Assembly: GCA_001871015.1 (NCBI GenBank)
Contig: MNUO01000094.1
Location: 454 to 17,270 of the forward strand
Direction: 5' to 3'
Length of the DNA: 16,817 nt
Origin: Candidatus Desantisbacteria bacterium CG1_02_38_46
GTDB taxonomy: Bacteria; Desantisbacteria; UBA1551; UBA1559
Shown: positions 4,608 to 16,542 of the stretch, one piece after another
Numbering within the stretch: the stretch's first letter is position 1
How the letters are laid out: each line of letters begins with the position of its first letter
The notes under the pieces: generated by a model
Seen by the model: the letters and a program-made list of their open reading frames with translations, nothing else
What the model was told of the DNA's origin: nothing
Database searches by the model: none
Made by a program: the position numbers and the translations under genes

Positions 4608-4629
4608 GTAGTGGTCGCATTTATGCGAC
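4608..4629. repeat. GTAGTGG motif joined to a hairpin
   Basis: GTAGTGG (4608-4614) runs into the hairpin GTCGCAT-TT-ATGCGAC (4614-4629). The same 7-mer occurs at 4971-4977 and at 14052-14058, with its complement CCACTAC at 14161-14167. This copy looks like a truncated palindromic element between the kinase and the small membrane protein. Confidence 0.6.
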
Positions 4630-4645
4630 ATTTTGAGGAGGGAGA

Positions 4646-6884: not shown

Positions 6885-7711
6885 TAGATAGCCACAAAGG
6901 TTATAGAAAAGTAACTCAAACCTTTAGGTTTGAAAATGTCAAGACTAAAGTCTTGAGTTACAAAATGATTTTTCTTATCATTGTTTCGCTATCGACTAGC
7001 GATTATCGACTACCAACTGCTTCTGCTGCTGGGCAGCAGGGCTTCTATCTCGGCTACAAACTTTCTTTTTATAATTTATTCTCGCCAGGTTTCCATTGTT
7101 TTCGCCGCAACCACCAATTTAGTTTCGGCTATCAAAACCTCCAGGTGGGTTCCTCAGAGATAAGTGCGGAAATTCAATATAACTGGATTGATGAGGTCAA
7201 AGGCAGTGTTTCTACGCATAACCTTACTAGCTGGGTTGTAGGTATAAAGGGGACATTCAATAGTGTGCCGGCTACCAGCCTTTCGTGGACAGGGCAGGAT
7301 GAAGTTCGTCTCATAGGCACCTACTTTGTCAATCTTCTGAGTCCCTGGCTTAATCGTGGTGTTGGGGGACTTGAATATTCCAGGTTATTCAATTACAATA
7401 ATTTCACGGGAATGGCACGTGCAGGAATTGGATTTTCACGCAAATTCCTACCAATTTATGGAGTAAACCTTATTTACTTTCCAACTACAAACACAAATGT
7501 CAACTTAAAATTTAACTGGCTTGAAGATAATGAAGATAATCCGGAATTTCCTTTTAAGTTCCCATTGGCCATTGGATTGGGTGGAAGATTTAATTCAGGG
7601 TTGGGTCTTGAATATGTTTGGGACCCTGCAAAATCCCACCTTGTTACTGCTGAGGGTAAATTGACCCACCACTGGCTCAAAGGATATCTCGGGGACAAAC
7701 TCTGGTTTTAA
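6881..7711 (+). CDS. predicted secreted beta-rich (outer-membrane type) protein
   Basis: A 276-aa open frame between lpxA and lpxB. Reading from the ATG at 6881 gives a 28-residue lead before MIFLIIVSLSTSDYRLPTAS, which looks like a signal peptide with a likely cleavage near ASAAG. The ATG at 6965 is therefore a plausible alternative start (248 aa), although it has no clear ribosome site. The mature part is rich in Y, F, W, N and G with alternating hydrophobic residues (SFGYQNLQVGSSEISAEIQY, GVNLIYFPTTNTNVNLKFNW), as in beta-barrel membrane proteins. No family is recognised. Codons 11-27 are encoded by a 51-bp palindromic repeat (6911-6961) whose length is a multiple of three. It starts by ATGA overlap with lpxA and ends one base before lpxB. 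A role in envelope biogenesis is suggested by context only. Confidence 0.6.
   Translation: MIDSHKGYRKVTQTFRFENVKTKVLSYKMIFLIIVSLSTSDYRLPTASAAGQQGFYLGYKLSFYNLFSPGFHCFRRNHQFSFGYQNLQVGSSEISAEIQYNWIDEVKGSVSTHNLTSWVVGIKGTFNSVPATSLSWTGQDEVRLIGTYFVNLLSPWLNRGVGGLEYSRLFNYNNFTGMARAGIGFSRKFLPIYGVNLIYFPTTNTNVNLKFNWLEDNEDNPEFPFKFPLAIGLGGRFNSGLGLEYVWDPAKSHLVTAEGKLTHHWLKGYLGDKLWF
6911..6961. repeat. inverted pair of TTTA-hairpin elements inside a reading frame
   Basis: GTAACTC (6911-6917) and GAGTTAC (6955-6961) bound two head-to-head hairpins: TCAAACCT-TT-AGGTTTGA (6916-6933) and TCAAGACT-AA-AGTCTTGA (6939-6956). They match the family seen at 15545, 15602 and 16504 but have different, self-complementary arms. 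The 51-bp length keeps the secreted-protein frame open. Confidence 0.8.
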
Positions 7712-7712
7712 A

Positions 7713-8852
7713 ATGAATAAAAAAATAATGCTTGTTGCCGGCGAGGTTTCTGGAGATTTGCACGGCAGTCTGCTTGCCCGCTCTTTGAAAGTTCTTGCGC
7801 CTGATATTAAATTATTCGGGATGGGCGGGCCGAGAATGAAGGAGATGGGCGTTGATATAAAATTTGATGTGATTAGATATGCGAATATTGGCATCTGGGA
7901 AAATGCAAAGAACTACTTTTTCACTATGCGCAGGGTGTTTCACAAAATAAAAAAAGTTGTGCAAGTCGAAAATCCGCGCTGCATTGTGCTCATTGATTAT
8001 CAGGGATTTAACTTAGCTCTTGCAAGATTTGTGAAGAGGAAGGGAATTCCGCTTGTTTATTATATACCGCCTCAATACTGGGCATGGAGAACTTCAAATG
8101 CGAAGACTGTTGCGAGCCTGATTGATAAAATAATTGCAATTCTGCCTTATGAAGAAGAGGCGTACAGGAAAGTGGGAGCAGATGTAGTTTTTACTGGGAA
8201 TCCACTAATAGATATAGTAAAAGTTCCCTATAGCAGGGATGAGATCTGTAAGATGCTTATACTTGACCCGAATGTTCCAATTATAGGTTTATTTCCAGGG
8301 AGCAGATTTTCTGAAGTCAAAAGACTTTTGCCTGTTATGCTTAAGTCTGCAGAAATTCTTCATAGCCAGATTCCCAAAGTTCAGTTTGTTCTTCCTGTTG
8401 CAGCAGTTCATCTCAAGAGCGAAATTGAAATGATTGTGAAAAAATCAAATATTTCAGTTAAAATTATTGATGGGCGCTCGTATGAAGTAATGGCTGTAAG
8501 CAACTTTCTAATAATTTGTTCTGGCCTTGCTACGTTAGAGGCAGCGATTCTCGGCGCCCCGATGGTCGTAATTTACAAAGTTTCATTTCTTACATCTTTG
8601 ATTGCTAAAATTCTTCTGAAAATTCCACAAGTAAGTCCTCCAAACATTCTTGCCCGCAGAGAAATTGTTCCTGAATTATTACAGGATAAGGCGAACCCTG
8701 AGAATATTGCCTGGACAGTTTCTGATATTTTAAGCAATCCTGGTAAAATTAAAGAAATGAAAAAGGGACTTACAGAAGCCGTGTCCAAACTTGGTCCTCC
8801 AGGTGCTTCTTCAAGAGCAGCAGAGATTATTATTAAAGGTGTCAGGTCTTGA
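7713..8852 (+). CDS. lpxB: lipid-A-disaccharide synthase
   Basis: LpxB is a peripheral inner-membrane glycosyltransferase (GT19) that joins UDP-diacylglucosamine to lipid X to form the lipid A disaccharide. The 379-aa length is standard. Characteristic pieces are the N-terminal AGEVSGDLHGSLLARSL (9-25), FGMGGPRMKEMGV, the IDYQGFN block, IPPQYWAWRTSNA (the family's PQxWAWR), FTGNPLIDIV, and the donor-side segments FPGSRFSEVKRLLPVM and CSGLATLEAAILGAPMVV. The start is one base after the preceding gene. The last codons (GVRS) and the TGA lie within the left arm of a 19-bp inverted repeat, so the C-terminal end may have been reshaped by the repeat. No lpxI/lpxH or lpxD is seen nearby. Confidence 0.95.
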   Translation: MNKKIMLVAGEVSGDLHGSLLARSLKVLAPDIKLFGMGGPRMKEMGVDIKFDVIRYANIGIWENAKNYFFTMRRVFHKIKKVVQVENPRCIVLIDYQGFNLALARFVKRKGIPLVYYIPPQYWAWRTSNAKTVASLIDKIIAILPYEEEAYRKVGADVVFTGNPLIDIVKVPYSRDEICKMLILDPNVPIIGLFPGSRFSEVKRLLPVMLKSAEILHSQIPKVQFVLPVAAVHLKSEIEMIVKKSNISVKIIDGRSYEVMAVSNFLIICSGLATLEAAILGAPMVVIYKVSFLTSLIAKILLKIPQVSPPNILARREIVPELLQDKANPENIAWTVSDILSNPGKIKEMKKGLTEAVSKLGPPGASSRAAEIIIKGVRS

Positions 8853-8883
8853 GTTGCAAACTCACAACTCAAGACCTGACACC
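8838..8883. repeat. 19-bp perfect inverted repeat at the end of lpxB
   Basis: GGTGTCAGGTCTTGAGTTG (8838-8856), an 8-nt loop, then CAACTCAAGACCTGACACC (8865-8883). The lpxB stop is inside the left arm. No T-tract follows directly, so it is more likely a palindromic repeat (with possible 3'-end stabilising effect) than a canonical terminator. The word AACTCAAGAC is shared with the element at 6911-6961. Confidence 0.85.
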
Positions 8884-8916
8884 TATTTTCATTTTCATTT
8901 AGGAAAGGGGGATGGA

Positions 8917-10122
8917 ATGGTAAAAACAATAGAAGAAATTAATGAGCGGATTAAGAAAGGTGAAGCCATTGTAGTTACTGCTGAGGAAATGATTGATGTG
9001 GTTAAGGAAAAAGGAGCAAAGAAGGCGGCACAGGAAGTGGACGTGGTTACAACAGGAACTTTTGGTCCGATGTGTTCAAGCGGGATGTATGTTAACATTG
9101 GTCATTCAAAACCACGGATAAAATTGGGTGGAGGGGAATGTTATTTGAATGAAGTGCCAGCTTACTGCGGATTTGCTGCTGTAGATATCTATCTTGGTTG
9201 TGCTGCGGTTCCTGACGAAGACCCTCGCAACAAAGTCCATCACGGTGAATTCAAATACGGCGGGGGTCATGTAATCGAAGAATTTGTTGCAGGTAAGGAT
9301 ATTAAACTCATTGCAACTGCCTATGGCACTGATTGTTATCCAAGAAAGAAATTAGAGACCTGGATAAATATAAAAGATGTCAATGAGGCTGTGCTTTTTA
9401 ACCCTAGAAATTGCTATCAGAATTACAATGTGGCAGTGAACCTCTCGGATAAAATTATTTACACCTATATGGGCGTGCTGAAACCAAATCTCGGTAACGC
9501 TAATTATTGCAGCGCAGGGCAACTTTCACCACTTCTCAATGACCCGTTTTATAAGACAGTTGGAATTGGCACAAAGATTTTTCTGGGTGGAGGAATCGGT
9601 TGTGTTGCCTGGCAGGGAACCCAGCATAATCCAACTGCAAAAAGAAAGGAAAACGGTCTGCCATGTACGGGTGCAGGAACATTAGCAGTAATCGGAGATT
9701 TGAAACAGATGAAACCGGAGTGGCTGGTTGGAACAAGTATGTTAGGATATGGTGCTACGCTTACAGTTGGAATCGGCATTCCAATTCCTATTTTAAATGA
9801 AGAAATTGCCCGGTATGCTGCAGTTAGAGACGAAGAAATCTGGGCGCAGGTTGTGGATTACAGCAATGCTTATCCAAATATGATTCCAGGTAGTATTACT
9901 GAAGTAAATTATGCACAATTGAAGAGCGGTAAAATTAATATCCATGGTAAAGAAGTTCCCACTTCACCTTTGTCCAGTTATCCCAGGGCTCAGGAAATTG
10001 CTGGCACTCTTAAAGAATGGATAAAGAATGGCAAATTTCTTTTAACCGAATTCGTTGCGCCGATTCCAGGTCCAGAATCAGGCTTGACTTTCAAACCTTT
10101 GAAAGAAAGACCAGTTGAATAG
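8917..10122 (+). CDS. homocysteine biosynthesis protein (HcyBio, DUF39)
   Basis: A 401-aa protein recognised as COG1900/DUF39. In methanogens this family, together with a NIL-domain ferredoxin protein, turns aspartate semialdehyde and sulfide into homocysteine without O-acyl-homoserine. Family features are VTTGTFGPMCSSGMYVNIGH (44-63), IKLGGGECYLNEVPAYCG, GGGHVIEEFVAGKDIKL, ATAYGTDCYPRKKLETWINI, and GGGIGCVAWQGTQHNP. C53 and C140 sit where the two functionally important cysteines of the methanogen protein are expected (from memory, not an alignment). The ATG at 8917 is preferred over an upstream frame extension (from 8791) because AGGAAAGGGGG lies just before it and the extension reads lpxB and the palindrome out of frame. 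The probable partner gene begins at 16543. Confidence 0.85.
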   Translation: MVKTIEEINERIKKGEAIVVTAEEMIDVVKEKGAKKAAQEVDVVTTGTFGPMCSSGMYVNIGHSKPRIKLGGGECYLNEVPAYCGFAAVDIYLGCAAVPDEDPRNKVHHGEFKYGGGHVIEEFVAGKDIKLIATAYGTDCYPRKKLETWINIKDVNEAVLFNPRNCYQNYNVAVNLSDKIIYTYMGVLKPNLGNANYCSAGQLSPLLNDPFYKTVGIGTKIFLGGGIGCVAWQGTQHNPTAKRKENGLPCTGAGTLAVIGDLKQMKPEWLVGTSMLGYGATLTVGIGIPIPILNEEIARYAAVRDEEIWAQVVDYSNAYPNMIPGSITEVNYAQLKSGKINIHGKEVPTSPLSSYPRAQEIAGTLKEWIKNGKFLLTEFVAPIPGPESGLTFKPLKERPVE

Positions 10123-10176
10123 AATTGAAGTGTTTGTATGTCTATTCCTTATTTTGGGTTATTTTGGGTTTTTTCC

Positions 10177-10216
10177 TTGACAATTATTTATACTTGTGTT
10201 ATACTATAATTATACT
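10177..10216 (+). promoter_or_regulatory. strong promoter with periodic TATACT boxes
   Basis: A consensus -35 TTGACA (10177-10182), a 17-base spacer, and -10 TATACT (10200-10205) preceded by TGT (extended -10). TATACT also occurs at 10189-10194 and 10211-10216, giving three copies exactly 11 bases apart, on one face of the helix and centred on the -10. That is the pattern expected of a ribbon-helix-helix autorepressor operator, and the first gene downstream encodes such a protein. The promoter is seen directly; the operator is inferred. Confidence 0.8.
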
Positions 10217-10258
10217 TAAAACATTCTAAAAGACACTCTAATAGATAAAGGAGGAGAT

Positions 10259-10519
10259 ATGCAACACTCAATAAAGACAGCGGTCAGCCTTCCTGAGGAT
10301 TTAATGAAAAGAGTAGAAAAATTACGAGCCTCTGTTGGTATTAACCGCAGTCAGTTTTTTCTTAAAGCCTTACAAACCTATATAGACGAATTTCCTGAGA
10401 GCGGGGAGAAAAAAGTCGCATCCCTTTACAAACAAATTCAAGAAACTGACAAAAAAATACTTGGTCAGTTTGGTCAACATTCTTACAAAAACCTTCCCCC
10501 ATACAGGGAAGAGGAGTAG
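10259..10519 (+). CDS. ribbon-helix-helix antitoxin of a MazF-type module
   Basis: An 86-aa protein with an RHH (CopG/MetJ-like) DNA-binding domain at residues 5-44: the strand IKTAVSLPEDLMKRVEKL, then helices containing GINRSQFFLKALQTYID. The C-terminal 40 residues (KVASLYKQIQETDKKILGQF, ending in an acidic YREEE) would form the toxin-neutralising tail. A very strong AAAGGAGGAG ribosome site precedes the ATG. The toxin gene starts three bases after its stop. In such modules the antitoxin both blocks the toxin and represses its own operon, here probably through the TATACT boxes at 10189-10216. Module identity is well supported by the paired genes. Confidence 0.85.
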   Translation: MQHSIKTAVSLPEDLMKRVEKLRASVGINRSQFFLKALQTYIDEFPESGEKKVASLYKQIQETDKKILGQFGQHSYKNLPPYREEE

Positions 10520-10522
10520 AAC

Positions 10523-10885
10523 ATGGAGAGCGCCAATTATCCTCGTAGGGGACAAATATATCTTCTTAGTTTTAAAGATAGCCAGGGACGAGCAATGAGA
10601 GAGTCGCACCCTGCTTTAGTTGTTCAAAACAATACCGCCAATCGTTATAGCGGAGTTATCTTAGTAGTACCGCTCACAAGCAATCTAAAGGTTGCAGATT
10701 TGCCGGTTGGTGTACTAATGGAACCCCCTGAAGGAGGAGTAAAGAAATCATCTGCAATCCACTGTGGCCAAATTCACACTATTAACCGTAATGAATTTAC
10801 TCCTGGAATATTATTGGGTCAGGTTTCTCCCTTAACAATACAAAAAGTTGATAAAGCCCTAAAAATCAGCCTGGGATTACTTTGA
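10523..10885 (+). CDS. MazF/PemK-family endoribonuclease toxin
   Basis: A 120-aa protein with the PemK/MazF fold. The N-terminal strand PRRGQIYLLSF (residues 7-17) is the conserved RGxIY start, HPALVVQNNTAN (30-41) the usual PxLVxQ block, and VILVVPLTSNLK (46-57) the catalytic T/S-containing strand. SAIHCGQIHTINRNEF then carries the conserved D/H-Q-I/L-x-T-I segment, and the C-terminal helix follows (LTIQKVDKALKISLGLL). Members cut single-stranded mRNA or other RNA at short sequences; the cut site cannot be read from sequence. It is intact, immediately downstream of its antitoxin, with no separate promoter. Confidence 0.9.
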   Translation: MESANYPRRGQIYLLSFKDSQGRAMRESHPALVVQNNTANRYSGVILVVPLTSNLKVADLPVGVLMEPPEGGVKKSSAIHCGQIHTINRNEFTPGILLGQVSPLTIQKVDKALKISLGLL

Positions 10886-10889
10886 ATTT

Positions 10890-11013
10890 AACCCGCTTTT
10901 ATTCTGGCGAGTAAGTGAGCCTACTTCTGGCGAGTAAGTGAGCCTACTTCTGGCGAGTAAGTGAGCCTACTTCTGGCTCTTCCAGAGAGCCTACTTTTGG
11001 CGGGTTTTTTATT
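10890..11013 (+). terminator. terminator-like stem whose loop is filled with repeats
   Basis: AACCCGC at 10890-10896 is complementary to GCGGGTT at 11000-11006, which is followed by a run of T (11005-11010, then ATTT). This has the stem and T-tract of an intrinsic terminator for the MazF operon, but the arms are more than 100 bases apart and the loop is occupied by four AGTAGGC-family repeat units. A simple ancestral hairpin invaded by repeats would explain it. Confidence 0.55.
10902..10994. repeat. tandem 23-bp AGTAGGC-family repeats
   Basis: Three identical 23-bp units start at 10902, 10925 and 10948 (each TTCTGGCGAGTAAGTGAGCC plus TAC). A diverged 24-base unit at 10971-10994 carries the hairpin GGCTCT-TCCAG-AGAGCC. 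Read on the minus strand the core is GCCAGAAGTAGGCTC, matching copies at 877-900 and 14058-14103. There are no spacers, so this is not CRISPR. Confidence 0.9.
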
Positions 11014-11039
11014 TATAGACACGGAAAGGGGTCCCCAAA

Positions 11040-11201
11040 ATGATAGCAATTTGTCAATGGTATCTTAAAGGTGAAAAGGATAATAATTGCAGGTGTCCTA
11101 TAGTGCGCGATTTATTCTCTGGACGCACTTTGAAATGCAGTGGCAAACCCCCCGAAGAGTCGGGGGGGGCACACCTCTCAAAACTAATCCCGGGGGAGTA
11201 A
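11040..11201 (+). CDS. possible 53-aa cysteine-containing ORF, perhaps a remnant
   Basis: Reads MIAICQWYLKGEKDNNCRCP, then IVRDLFSGRTLKCSG, with cysteines at 5, 17, 19 and 33 that could bind a metal. AAAGGGG lies 8-9 bases before the ATG. The C-terminal third (KPPEESGGAHLSKLIPGE) is encoded by a GC-rich hairpin repeat, so an original tail may have been lost. No family is recognised; it may be a chance or degraded frame. Confidence 0.25.
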   Translation: MIAICQWYLKGEKDNNCRCPIVRDLFSGRTLKCSGKPPEESGGAHLSKLIPGE

Positions 11202-11232
11202 TAATTCTTTTCGCCTTTTGTATAAAAAGAAA

Positions 11233-11286
11233 TATCTCAACCTATCGCCCGAGGATGCTTGTAGAGAATTTTTGAGTAAGTACTGA
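11233..11286 (+). pseudogene. 17-codon C-terminal tail remnant, copy 1
   Basis: Encodes YLNLSPEDACREFLSKY followed by TGA. It matches a second copy at 12501-12554. The two differ at ten synonymous codons but only two amino acids, a protein-coding signature. No start or body is attached; the frame is open only from about 11188. Confidence 0.6.
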
Positions 11287-11405
11287 GGAGGTTGAGCGAA
11301 GCGAAATCCCGCATCGAAGCGACTGCAAGGAGTCCCGATTAAAACATCGGGGCATCGGGAACGCCTGCAGGGGCTGGCGAGAGACACAGAGAAAAAGGAG
11401 AACAA

Positions 11406-12488
11406 ATGCCGTTTAAACCAAAATTTATTATAACGACAAAAATTAACAAATCCCTTGTTGAAATAGAGCGGGTGCGTGGGTTTCTTGATGCGGTTACACT
11501 TAAGGATGAATGGATTTCTGATATGCAGAAAAAAGCATTAATTCTTGAGACGCACCACTCTACACACATTGAGGGAACAGCATTAAGTCTTGAGCAGGCA
11601 AAAAACATATTGGAAGGCAAAAAAGTCAAAGGCATTAACCGGGACGATGAAAAAGAGCTTCTGAATTATAAAAAAGCAATGGATTTTATTTCAAAATATC
11701 TTGGTAAAGATTATCCAATAACCGAAGGTGTAATTCGTGAACTTCATAAAATACTTGTCAAGGGTGTCCGAGGCGGGCGGGCAGGCCCGGGTAATTACCG
11801 CAAAATTCAAAATTATGTCGTCAACTCCCGCACGCGCGAAATCATATACACTCCACCGCCGCCTTTTGACGTTTCTCATCTCATGCATGAATTTGTGGAA
11901 TGGATAAATTCCGCACAGGGTATTTCCCCGGTTCTTGTTGCTGCCATCTCACAATTCCAGTTTGTGCATATTCACCCATTTATTGATGGCAACGGCAGAA
12001 CTGCCCGGCTCATCTCTATGCTTATTCTTTATAAAACCGGCTACGATTTTAAAAGGCTTTTTACCATTTCAGAATATTACGATAAAGACAGGACGGGTTA
12101 TTACGCAGCTATTCAGTCAGTTAGAAAAAACAATATGGATATGACGGCCTGGCTTGAATATTTCATTGAAGGATTACGGTCACAGATGGCTGAAATTCAG
12201 GAGAAAGGTAAAAAAATCATCGTTGCCGATAAGATTATAAAATCATTAAAGGAAATAGAATTAAATATGCGACAGGAAAAAATTATTCGGTATTTACTAA
12301 TTAACAAGCAGATTAATAATGAACAATGCCAGAAAGCTTGTAAAACTATTAAAAGAACGGCCACGAGAGATTTAACCGGGCTGGTTGAAAAAAACGTCCT
12401 GAAAAAATATGGCAAGAAAAAGGGTACTTATTATATTCTGTCGCCAAAAACAGAAGAAAAAATAAGGGACATTATGGGACATACTTAA
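11406..12488 (+). CDS. Fic-domain AMPylase-type protein
   Basis: A 360-aa Fic protein. The catalytic motif HPFIDGNGRTAR is at residues 190-201, giving H190 as the catalytic base and the phosphate-binding GNGR loop. N-terminal to it is the inhibitory helix motif STHIEG (52-57), fitting [ST]xxxE[GN], so activity should be auto-inhibited. The flap region includes NYRKIQNYVVNS and IIYTPPPPFDV. The C-terminal 80 residues form a probable winged helix (EKIIRYLLINKQINNEQCQK, then LTGLVEKNVLKKYGKKKGTY) for DNA or target binding. Such proteins usually transfer AMP to a protein hydroxyl; the target is unknown. AAGGAG precedes the ATG. A conserved-looking tail follows in-frame after the TAA (see 12501-12554). 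It may be accessory, being flanked by repeats. Confidence 0.9.
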   Translation: MPFKPKFIITTKINKSLVEIERVRGFLDAVTLKDEWISDMQKKALILETHHSTHIEGTALSLEQAKNILEGKKVKGINRDDEKELLNYKKAMDFISKYLGKDYPITEGVIRELHKILVKGVRGGRAGPGNYRKIQNYVVNSRTREIIYTPPPPFDVSHLMHEFVEWINSAQGISPVLVAAISQFQFVHIHPFIDGNGRTARLISMLILYKTGYDFKRLFTISEYYDKDRTGYYAAIQSVRKNNMDMTAWLEYFIEGLRSQMAEIQEKGKKIIVADKIIKSLKEIELNMRQEKIIRYLLINKQINNEQCQKACKTIKRTATRDLTGLVEKNVLKKYGKKKGTYYILSPKTEEKIRDIMGHT

Positions 12489-12500
12489 GGGACATTGATC

Positions 12501-12554
12501 TATCTCAATTTAAGCCCGGAGGACGCCTGCCGGGAGTTTATGAGTAAACATTGA
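12501..12554 (+). pseudogene. 17-codon C-terminal tail remnant, copy 2
   Basis: Encodes YLNLSPEDACREFMSKH followed by TGA. It lies in the same frame as the Fic gene, 12 bases after its TAA, so read-through would append it. It is homologous to the tail at 11233-11286. Whether it is a Fic extension cut off by a nonsense change or a relic of another gene is not clear. Confidence 0.6.
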
Positions 12555-12713
12555 AGCGAGGTTTGAGAGGGTAGGGTTCCTAAATCTAGTGTGGTGTTTC
12601 TAACAGATCTTTACATTTGAATGTGTTTGGCTATGGTCTCTAAAGTGCAATCTCCGACAAGTTCGCAGGCTACCTAAGTTTGAAGAGAGTTAAAAAATTT
12701 AAGGAGAGCAGTA

Positions 12714-15500
12714 GTGGATATTGATTTAAGAATCGAAAATGAATACAGCCTTCCTGTTGAATCAGTCCTGGAAAAATTAAAAACCAGATTGTCCGGACTT
12801 TCTGAACAGGAGGCTGCAGAAAAACTGGTTCAGTTCGGACTTAATGAGTTGAAAGAAAAGAAAAAAATTTCGCCGCTTAAATTATTTTTCTCCCAGTTCA
12901 ATAATTTTCTTGTATATATTTTAATAGCAGCAATGGCGGTATCAATGATTTTGGGTGAGTGGCTTGACAGTATGGTTATTGCTGCAATTTTAGTTTTGAA
13001 TGCCATTTTAGGATTTATCCAGGAATTTAAAGCAGAAAAATCTATTAGGGCACTCAAAAAACTTTCCGGACTAAAGGCAAGAGTAATCAGGGATAATTGT
13101 GTGAAGGAAATTTCTGCCCGTGAATTAGTTCCTGGCGATATAATCCTTGTTGATGTTGGCGAAAAAATACCTGCTGATGCAAGAATATTGGAAGAGATGA
13201 ACTTAGAAACCCAGGAATCTATCTTAACCGGAGAATCACTACCGGTTTCCAAAACCACAGAACCGCTTGAGTCTGATATGCCAGTGGCTGATAGAAAAAA
13301 CATTGTTTTTTCCGGAACAATTGTTACAGCCGGACATGGCAAAGCAGTGGTTACCAGAACCGGGATGTCAACCCAGATAGGAAAGATTGCTGAATTAATT
13401 CAGGATGTAGAATCAGAATCCACGCCTCTTCAGAAGAAATTAGAAGTGTTGGCTAAATGGCTTGGCTGGGCAATTGTTTTTATCTGTATATTTGTAACTC
13501 TTGCTGGAATTTTCCGGGGTGGAAAAATTTTAGAAATGATTATTGTTGGAGTAAGCCTTGCTGTTGCTGCTATTCCTGAAAGTCTGCCTGCAGTGGTAAC
13601 CATAAGTTTAGCAATCGGGGTTCAGAGAATGGTCAAACGCCATGCCCTTGTCAGACGGCTTCCTCTTGTAGAAACTCTGGGTTGCACAACGGTTATTTGT
13701 TCAGATAAAACCGGCACGCTTACCTGCAATGAAATGACCGTAAGGAAAATATATTGTAACAACAAAACTATAGAGGTTACAGGTTCAGGTTATAGTCCTG
13801 AAGGTGAATTTATCTTAGATGGAAAAACTATTAATACTGAGGAAGTAGAACTCTTATTGAAAATTGGCGATTTGAATAATAATGCAATTCTTGAGAGCGG
13901 AAATTTGATTGGCGATCCGACTGAAGGCGCCCTGCTTGTCAGTGCCAGTAAGGCAGGATTGAATGATGCTGAATTGAAAAAATTATATTCCCGTACTGGC
14001 GAGATAGGTTTTGATAGCATTCGTAAAATGATGACTACCACCCACAAAAATGTAGTGGCCGAAAGTAGGCACTCTGCCAAAAGTAGGCCCTCTGGAAGGG
14101 GAAGTGCAGAGTTTACTCTGCAGAAAAGTCGAGCGGGGTACCCGCCGAAGGCTGGTCGGACCACTACAATTGATAAAAAATTAGTTTTTACTAAAGGTGC
14201 TGTAGAAATGGTTCTTGAAAAATGCAGTTTTATAATTGAGGATGGAAAAATAAGAGCGCTGACAGAGGATGACTATGAAAACATTCTGGAAAAAAATTTG
14301 CAATTTGCCAGTGAATCTTTGAGAGTATTGGCTTTTGCTTACAAAGAATTAGAAGAAGATTCTAAAGACCCCGAGCAAATTGAAAACGACCTGATATTTG
14401 TGGGCCTGCAGGCAATGCTCGACCCACCCAGACCAGAAGTAATTGAAGCAATAAGAAAGTGTAAACAAGCAGGAATTAAAGTAGTAATGATTACCGGGGA
14501 TTTTCTTCCAACAGCCCAGGCAATAGCAAAAGAGGTGGGATTAGAGGGTAAGGCTTTAACCGGGAAAGACATTGATTCAGGAATTAATTTAGATGAGATT
14601 GTTGAGGATGTTTCTATTTATGCAAGAGTTAATCCGGAACACAAAATAAAAATTATTAAAGCATTGAAGAAAAAAGGTAACATTGTGGCAATGACTGGCG
14701 ATGGTGTCAATGATGCTCCTGCTTTGAAAAAATCTGATGTAGGTATAGCGATGGGTGTAGTTGGAACAGATGTAGCAAGAGAGGCTTCTGGAATGATTTT
14801 AACAGATGACAATTTTGCCTCGATTGTTAATGCTGTAGAAGAGGGCAGGGTTATCTACGATAATATTAAAAAATTTGTTAACTATCTTTTATCCACTAAC
14901 TTAAGCGAGATTCTTATTTTATTTGTAGCAATTATGATTGGTTTCAGGGATAAATCAGGCGCAATAATTATTCCCCTGACAGCCATTCAAATTTTATGGG
15001 TAAACCTTGTTACCGATGGGCCACCAGCCTTAGCTTTGAGTTTGGACCCATCTGAAAAGAATATTATGATGCGTCCACCCCGCAGACCAGACGAAAAAAT
15101 AGTATCCAGGAATATGACTCTGAATATTTTTGCAATAGGAGTTTTGGTTTGTATTGGCACACTTTTCCTGTTTAAATATGGTTTGAGATTTACAGGCATT
15201 AATGAGGCAAGGACAATGGTTTTTACAGGCCTTGTTGTTTTTGAAATAATAAGACTTGCAATGGTTCGTTCCCAGTATAAAACAGGCGTCTTTTCAAATA
15301 TGTATTTGGTTCTTGCAGTGGCGAGTTCCATAATTTTGCAACTTTTAGTGGTTTATATTCCGGTATTGAATAAAATTTTCAAAACAGTTCCGCTTGGACT
15401 GTTGGAGTGGGCGCAAATAATTACTGTTGGGCTCATTCTTTATATTAGCGGTAGCATAACAACAGCACTTATCAGAAAATACACTTCAGAGCGAGACTGA
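12714..15500 (+). CDS. P2A-type Ca2+-transporting ATPase with in-frame insertion
   Basis: A 928-aa membrane pump that exports a divalent cation, probably Ca2+, using ATP. The cation ATPase N-terminal domain is followed by membrane helices near residues 60-105, the actuator motif TGES (172-175), and PESLP in M4 (288-292, in place of the usual PEGLP). The phosphorylation site is DKTGT with D331, the KGA nucleotide-binding motif follows (FTKGAVE), and the hinge motif is TGDGVNDAP (661-669). In M5-M6, NLSEIL and NLVTDGPPALAL supply E, N and D at the calcium-site positions of SERCA-type pumps, and four more helices end the protein. The start is GTG with AAGGAGAG upstream. Residues about 447-485 in the nucleotide-binding domain are an extra 39-residue stretch (SRHSAKSRPSGRGSAEF and so on) encoded by a repeat. 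The frame is open and all core motifs are intact. Confidence 0.92.
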   Translation: MDIDLRIENEYSLPVESVLEKLKTRLSGLSEQEAAEKLVQFGLNELKEKKKISPLKLFFSQFNNFLVYILIAAMAVSMILGEWLDSMVIAAILVLNAILGFIQEFKAEKSIRALKKLSGLKARVIRDNCVKEISARELVPGDIILVDVGEKIPADARILEEMNLETQESILTGESLPVSKTTEPLESDMPVADRKNIVFSGTIVTAGHGKAVVTRTGMSTQIGKIAELIQDVESESTPLQKKLEVLAKWLGWAIVFICIFVTLAGIFRGGKILEMIIVGVSLAVAAIPESLPAVVTISLAIGVQRMVKRHALVRRLPLVETLGCTTVICSDKTGTLTCNEMTVRKIYCNNKTIEVTGSGYSPEGEFILDGKTINTEEVELLLKIGDLNNNAILESGNLIGDPTEGALLVSASKAGLNDAELKKLYSRTGEIGFDSIRKMMTTTHKNVVAESRHSAKSRPSGRGSAEFTLQKSRAGYPPKAGRTTTIDKKLVFTKGAVEMVLEKCSFIIEDGKIRALTEDDYENILEKNLQFASESLRVLAFAYKELEEDSKDPEQIENDLIFVGLQAMLDPPRPEVIEAIRKCKQAGIKVVMITGDFLPTAQAIAKEVGLEGKALTGKDIDSGINLDEIVEDVSIYARVNPEHKIKIIKALKKKGNIVAMTGDGVNDAPALKKSDVGIAMGVVGTDVAREASGMILTDDNFASIVNAVEEGRVIYDNIKKFVNYLLSTNLSEILILFVAIMIGFRDKSGAIIIPLTAIQILWVNLVTDGPPALALSLDPSEKNIMMRPPRRPDEKIVSRNMTLNIFAIGVLVCIGTLFLFKYGLRFTGINEARTMVFTGLVVFEIIRLAMVRSQYKTGVFSNMYLVLAVASSIILQLLVVYIPVLNKIFKTVPLGLLEWAQIITVGLILYISGSITTALIRKYTSERD
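14052..14167. repeat. composite palindromic insertion inside the ATPase gene
   Basis: Bounded by imperfect inverted ends GTAGTGGCCGA (14052-14062) and TCGGACCACTAC (14156-14167). Inside are two AGTAGGC-family cores (GCCGAAAGTAGGC at 14058, GCCAAAAGTAGGC at 14076), the pair CTCTGC/GCAGAG, and GCGGGGTACCCGCC (14133-14146), which is also found in the broken kinase. It lies between THKN and KLVFTKGA, where other pumps have a short loop, and preserves the frame. Confidence 0.8.
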
Positions 15501-15510
15501 GTTCGTTTTT

Positions 15511-15539
15511 TTGACTTTTGAGTTAAAGTATGGTATAAT
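15511..15539 (+). promoter_or_regulatory. sigma-70-type promoter upstream of bioY
   Basis: TTGACT (15511-15516), a 17-base spacer, and TATAAT (15534-15539) preceded by TGG, an extended -10. The expected start site falls inside the first TTTA hairpin (15545-15562), so the transcript would begin with that hairpin. A second TATAAT at 15591-15596 precedes the next copy of the same hairpin without an obvious -35. Confidence 0.75.
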
Positions 15540-15622
15540 GTAACTCAGGGCTTTAGCCCTGATATGCTTTAGCCCTGATATCAAATATGATATAATGTAA
15601 CTCAGGGCTTTAGCCCTGATAT
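15534..15622. repeat. direct repeats of the TTTA-hairpin element with TATAAT
   Basis: Two identical 32-base copies (15534-15565 and 15591-15622), each made of TATAATG, TAAC, the hairpin TCAGGGCT-TT-AGCCCTGA (15545-15562 and 15602-15619) and TAT. A partial third copy (GCTTTAGCCCTGATAT) lies at 15566-15581 between them. Confidence 0.9.
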
Positions 15623-15844
15623 CACACCTGTCCGATGTTTCAATGGGACTCTCCGATGGAGTCCGAACCCCGATGTCTCCGATGCTATCGTTCGGAGTCC
15701 GACAGAATCGTCGGACCATCGGGGCTTCGGACCGTATCGTAAGTTCCGATGCCCTTTGGATACGGAATCCCGCATCGTAAGCATCGGGACATCGGAGAAG
15801 GTTTGAGGGACACATCTGACAGCTTAAGTATTACGGAGGTGTCA

Positions 15845-16513
15845 ATGATTAGCAGGACAATGAGCTTGCAGTATGAAATTTTTGCATGGAGGGAGAGCCG
15901 TGGAATTGTTTCAAAATTGTCTCTATGTTTTGGAATGGCAGCCATCACAGGACTTTTAGCTGGAATTAGAATTCCTCTTCCGTTCACACCTGTTCCAATA
16001 ACAGGACAGGTCCTGGGCGTATTTCTTGGGAGTATTTTTCTAGGCAGGTTTTATGGTGGAATAAGCCAGATATTCTATGTTATATTGGGATTATGTGGTA
16101 TTCCCTGGTTTGCTGGATGGAAAGGGGTTTCAATATATCAATTCCTTTCTGTTCCGTCTGCGGGATATCTTATTGGATTTATTTTTGCAGGATTCTATTT
16201 AGGAAGTGTGGTTGACAGGAAAATAAAAAATCGTTTCTTTTTGCAACAGGTCTGGGCAATGACAATTGCTAGTTTAATCATATATTTATTCGGGACATTG
16301 CATCTATCAATTGTGTTGAAGTTGAGTTTCAAACAGGCAATTGTTATGGGGGTATTACCATTTATACTTGTGGATTTGTTGAAAGCTGTTGTCGCCGCAT
16401 CACTATCTTATTCAATTCTTCCTAAAATACCGTACAATGGCGAATTGGATCGCGATGTAACTCAAAACTTTTCGAAGATCTGCCGTGGTGGAAGTTTTGA
16501 TAATCAAGGCTAA
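15845..16513 (+). CDS. bioY: BioY biotin transporter (ECF substrate-binding component)
   Basis: A 222-aa integral membrane protein that binds biotin and imports it, alone or with the ECF ATPase/transmembrane components. BioY hallmarks are the segment IPLPFTPVPITGQVLGVFLG (39-58), which contains the family's TPVPITGQ motif, then GLCGIPWFAG, PSAGYLIGFIFAG, and the late VLPFILVDLLKAVVAA helix. About six membrane segments are expected. The ATG at 15845 is chosen over a longer frame from 15749 because GGAGGTG precedes it and the extension reads repeat DNA. The last 20 residues (DVTQNFSKICRGGSFDNQG) and the stop lie in two palindromic repeats, so the native C-terminus was probably near ILPKIPYNGEL. 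No bioM/N genes are nearby. Confidence 0.88.
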   Translation: MISRTMSLQYEIFAWRESRGIVSKLSLCFGMAAITGLLAGIRIPLPFTPVPITGQVLGVFLGSIFLGRFYGGISQIFYVILGLCGIPWFAGWKGVSIYQFLSVPSAGYLIGFIFAGFYLGSVVDRKIKNRFFLQQVWAMTIASLIIYLFGTLHLSIVLKLSFKQAIVMGVLPFILVDLLKAVVAASLSYSILPKIPYNGELDRDVTQNFSKICRGGSFDNQG

Positions 16514-16521
16514 AGCCTTGA
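16457..16521. repeat. two TTTA-hairpin family copies at the bioY 3' end
   Basis: The first copy, GTAACTCAAAACTT (16457-16470), pairs through TCAAAACTT/AAGTTTTGA (16462-16470 and 16492-16500) but carries about 21 extra bases in its loop. The second, TCAAGGCT-AA-AGCCTTGA (16504-16521), lies in the opposite orientation and supplies the bioY stop codon. Confidence 0.75.
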
Positions 16522-16542
16522 GATACTTTTGAGGAGATTAAA

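Follow-up and report, generated by a model that had tools for sequence, protein, structure and literature searches.

The locus considered here raises the question of what a short hairpin, repeated between genes with arms that change from copy to copy and still pair, is and how it spreads. The hairpins lie in a stretch of 16,817 nucleotides (the window) from the genome of Candidatus Desantisbacteria bacterium CG1_02_38_46, contig MNUO01000094.1, positions 454 to 17,270. We consider it very probable that they form a family of repetitive extragenic palindromes (REPs) and of their paired forms (REPINs, REP doublets forming hairpins) with the foot GTAA, spread by a REP-associated tyrosine transposase (RAYT) that recognises the foot and the folded hairpin. 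Elements of this kind are already known, and the GTAA foot is the variant aspect. The reading is based on copy number, paired arms, intergenic placement, the architecture of pairs and arrays, and a clade of hairpin-flanked RAYTs in five genomes. It is further supported by a site upstream of ssb that is occupied in one genome and unoccupied in another, and by copies nested in a palindrome that also exists empty.

Copies, arms and placement of the hairpin family

The genome of the window (1.73 Mb, 133 contigs, 87.8% complete) contains 198 exact matches to the pattern GTAACTC-N4-CTTTAG-N4-GA and 296 with at most two mismatches, which gives a family of about 300 copies; the reversed control gave 0 and 7, respectively. 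Since the pattern puts no constraint on either arm, the complementarity of the arms provides an independent test. Arm and placement statistics were obtained from about 105-108 copies, taken from the stretches around copies on the lower-numbered contigs. All four free arm pairs were matched in 102 out of 108 distinct copies (about 170 kb, overlapping loci) and three pairs in the other six. When the right arms were re-dealt 2000 times, perfect arms were found in 31 copies on average and never in more than 44. The commonest arms are AGGA, AGGG, AGAC, and AAAC, with AAAA, AAGG, AGAA, and AAGA being rarer, and 20 matched arm tetramers were found across all loci examined. The presence of several matched arm types indicates that changes between sub-families are two-sided. 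The preliminary description had proposed compensatory arm changes, which this result bears out, and the genome-wide copies are neither few nor unpaired.

The only same-order genome available, Ca. Desantisbacteria CG1_02_49_89 (G001), has 50 exact copies, including those at C21:2665 and 4985, which coincide with MNUP01000040.1. The 57 more distant genomes of the same search have none. Lone pattern matches in unrelated genomes have mostly unmatched arms and the appearance of chance. Viral contigs, searched by protein and by alignment, gave no RAYT relatives; their 61 matches to the hairpin pattern, 11 of them with perfect arms, correspond to chance plus a few real copies.

Reading frames occupy 85% of the stretches around the copies, yet only 12 of the 105 copies lie inside one (p about 3e-62; the frames were a simple longest-first set and not a gene call). 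Inverted pairs with the feet outward are separated mostly by 2 or 5 nt, and feet-in pairs, often with zero gap, and direct tandem arrays are also seen. Similar to REPs, the family is a short extragenic palindrome in tens to hundreds of copies with complementary arm sub-families, and similar to REPINs and bacterial interspersed mosaic elements (BIMEs), it has inverted two-hairpin units and tandem arrays.

The copies of the window lie at three sites (6911-6961, 15540-15619, and 16457-16526):

6911-6961, no strand: REPIN-like inverted pair, GTAACTCAAACCTTTAGGTTTGA, 5-nt spacer, TCAAGACTAAAGTCTTGAGTTAC, feet outward
6916-6933, plus strand: hairpin TCAAACCTTTAGGTTTGA with AAC arms
6939-6956, minus strand: hairpin TCAAGACTTTAGTCTTGA with AGA arms, inverted
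15540-15562 (hairpin 15545-15562), plus strand: GTAAC foot and hairpin TCAGGGCTTTAGCCCTGA, directly 3' of TATAAT (15534-15539)
15566-15583, plus strand: half copy GCTTTAGCCCTGATATCA, left arm missing
15597-15619 (hairpin 15602-15619), plus strand: GTAAC foot and hairpin TCAGGGCTTTAGCCCTGA, second copy of a 57-nt tandem unit
16457-16526, no strand: bioY stop spanned by an inverted pair, made up of the expanded hairpin with its GTAAC foot and then an inverted hairpin with foot GTATC

The five full copies and the expanded one were found exactly where the preliminary description had placed them, and the half copy is an addition to its list. All five full hairpins have eight perfect pairs and a TT loop. 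The flank GTAACTC, described as constant, is exact in four of the five and reads GTATCTC in the hairpin at 16504-16521. The pair at 6911-6961 folds into one long single-strand hairpin (z-score -5.6). It is located directly after lpxA and before an outer-membrane-like gene whose start may be 6966, which leaves the claim of a copy in a reading frame uncertain. The site at 15540-15619, a 57-nt tandem pair plus the half copy, lies between a P-type ATPase gene and bioY. Its first copy had been assigned to a promoter; a TTGACT-17-TATAAT that by eye resembles a promoter directly precedes this copy and places it in the 5' leader of bioY instead. A general link to promoters was rejected, as TATAAT directly 5' of the foot occurs solely in this tandem pair. 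The expanded hairpin (16462-16500) consists of TCAAAACTT, a 21-nt loop and AAGTTTTGA, and another copy with an expanded loop is present in locus L001. As described before, the hairpin at 16504-16521 overlaps a stop codon, that of bioY (16513).

RAYT genes and the probable mobility of the hairpins

The hairpins would be non-autonomous mobile DNA occurring as singles, inverted pairs (REPINs), and tandem arrays. The DNA would fold as a single-stranded hairpin and be copied by the RAYT, a Y1 HUH nuclease, with excision and insertion presumably taking place on single-stranded DNA. The enzyme would read the constant foot GTAA(C) and the apex CTT[T/C]AG, and need a paired stem with little regard to its sequence. 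As pairing and not sequence would be required, the arms could drift if both sides change together. This mechanism is drawn from the biochemistry of RAYTs in other species.

Genes for such an enzyme were found beside the hairpins in other genomes. G001 encodes two Y1 proteins of 160 aa with 86% mutual identity, each gene located between arrays of GTAACTC hairpins; one is surrounded by AGGG and AAAC arms, the other by AAAC, AGAC, and AGGC arms. GTAACTC-flanked relatives are encoded by two Deltaproteobacteria (52-57% identity), a Nitrospinae genome (49% identity, with the W94 codon reading as stop), and a Magasanikbacteria genome (42% identity). The flanking RAYT proteins match PF01797, and the two proteins tested score above the cut-off of NCBIfam NF047646 (REP-associated tyrosine transposase), with 99.7 bits against 80. 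By sequence and by AlphaFold2 fold (pLDDT, the predicted local distance difference test, 87.5), the best solved relative is PDB 4er8, the structure of a RAYT in complex with a REP hairpin. The HUH motif PDHLH and a single tyrosine in Y-x3-NP are present in the RAYT alignment. A single-stranded GTAA hairpin, GTAACTCAGGGCTTTAGCCCTGA, is a candidate substrate of the Desantisbacteria RAYT.

Around more distant RAYTs, the hairpins have a GTAG foot, and many of them share the CTT[T/C]AG apex. In the tree, the GTAA RAYTs of Desantisbacteria, Deltaproteobacteria, Nitrospinae, and Magasanikbacteria are grouped, together with one GTAGCTC RAYT of Brocadiaceae, with support 100/97. One REP/RAYT type across several phyla fits the patchy distribution and horizontal spread described for tnpAREP (PMC6006769). 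It is likely this RAYT clade that moves the hairpins, and the copies of the window may have arisen via such a RAYT, now lost or encoded in the unassembled part of the genome.

Indirect signs of movement were found at two kinds of site. The interval upstream of ssb (named by eye from the gene start MNKIIVSGNLVRDAEL) holds an array of three direct and one inverted copies in the genome of the window, and the orthologous interval in G001 is without such a hairpin, with flanking genes of about 71% DNA identity on both sides. A comparison of occupied with empty sites had been proposed, and this is such a case. Furthermore, 18 of the 105 copies are associated with a second repeated palindrome, AGGTGTCAGGTCTTGACA...TGTCAAGACCTGACACCT, at a distance of up to about 70 nt and in most cases inside it; the other 87 lie outside it. 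An empty form is present in the window:

8837-8884, no strand: second palindrome, REP-less and near-perfect, at the lpxB stop, AGGTGTCAGGTCTTGA..; AGGTGTCAGGTCTTGAGTTG..CAACTCAAGACCTGACACCT

Its outer arms recur around GTAAC hairpins at other genomic positions. In G001, two repeats of the form GGGGTCAGGTCTTGACA, located just downstream of a long Y1 gene, fit the motif GGGGWSAS shared by the repeats of TIRtrons (TIR, terminal inverted repeat), and chimeras of REPs with other stem-loops have been reported in Pseudomonas (PMC3733652). The unoccupied site and the nesting both suggest that the hairpins are mobile.

Several observations weigh against this reading. Mobility is deduced from sequence, with no transposition event observed, and the unoccupied ssb site, compared across different families, could reflect loss or rearrangement. 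The foot is GTAA, whereas canonical REPs are defined by GT[AG]G. In the genome of the window, which is 87.8% complete, searches by Pfam family and by protein did not find a RAYT of the cognate clade. The Y1 genes detected there are located at C60 (with one in-frame stop) and C109; their products show 26-28% identity, and neither gene has a hairpin closer than about 1.5 kb. C53 holds a fragment of IS200 type. The preliminary description had suggested a search for a RAYT; it succeeded in the sister genome as well as in genomes of three further phyla, where the genes are hairpin-flanked, and failed in the genome of origin. Among the 21 other genomes with at least five exact copies, only five have a hairpin-flanked RAYT of the GTAAC clade. 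REP arrays are a type of sequence at which short-read assemblies break. In an incomplete assembly of 133 pieces, loss of the RAYT and its absence from the assembly are therefore indistinguishable. Loss of REPtrons, in which a RAYT is flanked by the same repeats, has been reported in E. coli strains (PMC3733652); the arrangement itself was found here in five genomes other than that of the window.

Two other explanations were weighed. The hairpins could be structured RNA or regulatory hairpins, acting after transcription in mRNA ends or leaders as a terminator, a stabiliser or a protein site. Their intergenic placement, the copies in the leader and at the end of bioY, and the maintained pairing of the arms would agree with such a role. 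However, no curated structured-RNA family of Rfam matched the hairpin at gathering score, the copies are seen in either orientation and form arrays and inverted pairs, and in other phyla they flank a transposase gene. In addition, the orthologous site is unshared in the one case seen, and TATAAT adjoins only the two copies of the window's tandem pair. Of the REP-type elements and structured RNAs between which the preliminary description had left the choice, the former are favoured, and we regard the latter as highly improbable.

An unlikely explanation, although a better one than structured RNA, is that another enzyme mobilises the hairpins, such as a TIR-type Y1, another RAYT or an IS200-type host transposase, the GTAAC RAYT being a mere passenger in some genomes. 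The genome of the window, with two other Y1 genes and no cognate RAYT found, is in line with this, as are the 18 copies inside the TIR-like palindrome and the 16 of the 21 other copy-rich genomes that also lack a hairpin-flanked RAYT of the GTAAC clade. Nonetheless, 87 of the 105 copies lie outside the palindrome, and the other Y1 genes have no GTAAC hairpin flanks, whereas RAYTs of the GTAAC clade are flanked in four phyla. Spread by a RAYT of this clade remains the preferred reading.

The GTAA foot and residue 95 of the RAYT

The canonical REP foot is GT[AG]G (PMC6006769). A sorting of 24 GTAG families describes degeneracy at foot positions 2 and 3 (PMC3733652), and the REPs in Table 1 of PMC2817692 are all GTAG or GTGG. 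A GTAA foot variant was not found in the main text of the open-licence papers searched. The foot of the present family is conserved but lacks the final G, and the family is therefore classed as a REP variant and not as a canonical REP family.

Residues W94, Q95, E100, H101, and R104 of E. coli TnpAREP are discussed as guide-recognition residues (PMC6006769), and Q95, D100, and R104 are given as the relatively conserved ones in group 3 (PMC8266576). We compared position 95 in 58 GT[AG]G and 11 GTAA or GTAC RAYTs, with foot tags that were partly automatic (L172, with foot GTAGTGC, was mis-tagged, and L337 is weak). The residue is H in five GTAA RAYTs of the main group and A in that of Magasanikbacteria, H in the unrelated group-2 GTAA RAYT L327, I in the GTAC RAYT L192, and Q in 56 of the 58 GT[AG]G RAYTs. 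In the 160-aa RAYT of Desantisbacteria (L055), the residue at this position is H110. The association has a Fisher p of 8e-7, uncorrected for relatedness. The exceptions are L279 (a broken gene) and L305, with GTAA and Q, and L319 and L322, with GTAG and M; L298 has H and no clear GT foot. In the tree there are about four supported independent contrasts, of which on average two agree and 0.1 oppose, which is not significant.

A strict code, in which residue 95 reads base 4 of the foot and a change from G to A requires replacement of Q95 by H or A, would be in agreement with these frequencies and with the contact of Q95 with the guide in E. coli (PMC6006769, PMC8266576). It is doubtful in view of the four exceptions and of the few supported contrasts, and the strictest form, GTAA always with H95, was not upheld. 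That a change of the foot is often paired with a change of residue 95 is a lead and not a result. According to the guide rule, CT is selected by A3 and G4 of GTAG (PMC8266576), and its extension to a GTAA foot predicts cleavage at TT. When the flanks were inspected for a TT cleavage signature, the one prominent feature was a pyrimidine directly 5' of GTAAC, in 97% of the copies. A tentative scenario is a guide switch of the RAYT, in which base 4 changed from G to A (once to C) along with replacement of Q95, cleavage moved from CT to TT, and the GTAACTC hairpins and their clade spread over several subsurface phyla.

The closest contrast is between the RAYT L170 of Brocadiaceae (GTAGCTCAAACC.., LWQ) and that of Desantisbacteria (GTAACTCAAACC.., LWH), whose feet differ at one guide base and whose proteins are about 49% identical over their length. 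Two E. coli-type RAYTs of one genome (G1082), L327 and L305, lie amid GTAACCCGG hairpins and have H and Q, respectively, at position 95; this pair is a second, independent case of a GTAA foot. L298 and L180 are located amid hairpins with the repeated foot GATAGG, not GTAG, possibly an atypical guide.

Related systems and other features of the window

The family shares a short perfect stem and a 5' foot tetranucleotide with the group 3 GTAG REPs and REPtrons of H. influenzae (GTAGGGTGGGCTT[C/T]AGCCCACC) and S. maltophilia, as well as inverted pairs, arrays, and a RAYT gene between copies. The H. influenzae REP in Table 1 of PMC2817692 has the same TT/TC apex, CTT[T/C]AG, and arm sub-families with alternative complementary residues are described for GTAG REPs (PMC3733652). 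Unlike these, the present family has the foot GTAA followed by C, its cognate RAYTs have H (or A) in place of the usual Q95, and its host belongs to a candidate phylum, which is not among the hosts named in the passages on those REPs. With the REPINs and BIMEs of Pseudomonas fluorescens and E. coli it has in common the feet-outward inverted unit (6911-6961 and 16457-16526) and tandem expansion, but its spacers are very short, mostly 2 or 5 nt. Outer arms of the form GG[G/T]GTCAGGTCTTGACA around some GTAAC hairpins are similar to those of the TIRtrons (TIRYT repeats), and GTAG-1 units adjoined to unrelated stem-loops are described in Pseudomonas (PMC3733652). However, with 18 of the 105 hairpins nested, the GTAAC hairpin is independent of the TIR palindrome. 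TnpAREP subclasses 2.6 and 3 also have REP-like hairpins around a Y1 gene without a GT[AG]G foot, but in the account of PMC6006769 theirs are weak or atypical structures with other feet (CnGA in class 3), whereas the hairpin of the window is canonical and perfect.

Other repeats were also present. The sequence GTAGTGGTCGCATTTATGCGAC at 4608-4640 is a GTAG-footed hairpin of another REP-like family, and further hairpins with a GTAG foot, among them GTAGTGGCAGAGTTTACTCTGC and GTAGCGCAGGACTTTAGTCCTG, are found at other places in the genome. A repeat-rich segment at 14052-14166 (GTAGTGGCCGAAAGTAGGCACTCTGCCAAAAGTAGGC...GGACCACTAC, with GCAGAGTTTACTCTGC inside) is apparently an in-frame insertion in the P-type ATPase gene; related pieces are found around 878 and 10989 as well as on further contigs. 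Upstream of bioY, at 15640-15810, a segment of repeated CCGATG and CATCGG motifs contains several overlapping inverted repeats. A ribbon-helix-helix protein followed by a PemK/MazF-like protein (10259-10885) is a probable toxin-antitoxin pair; after it, at 10902-11005, there is a tandem array of the 23-nt unit TTCTGGCGAGTAAGTGAGCCTAC, another copy of which is found in L012. The window also encodes a MjaI-type restriction endonuclease at 15-647 (PF09568, E 1e-49).

The hairpins place REP/REPIN biology in a candidate phylum, and in the GTAA family a departure from the GT[AG]G foot has arisen naturally. The contrast between L170 and the Desantisbacteria RAYT makes the choice of guide and cleavage site by a RAYT directly testable. 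Families such as this one escape REP searches that require GT[AG]G.

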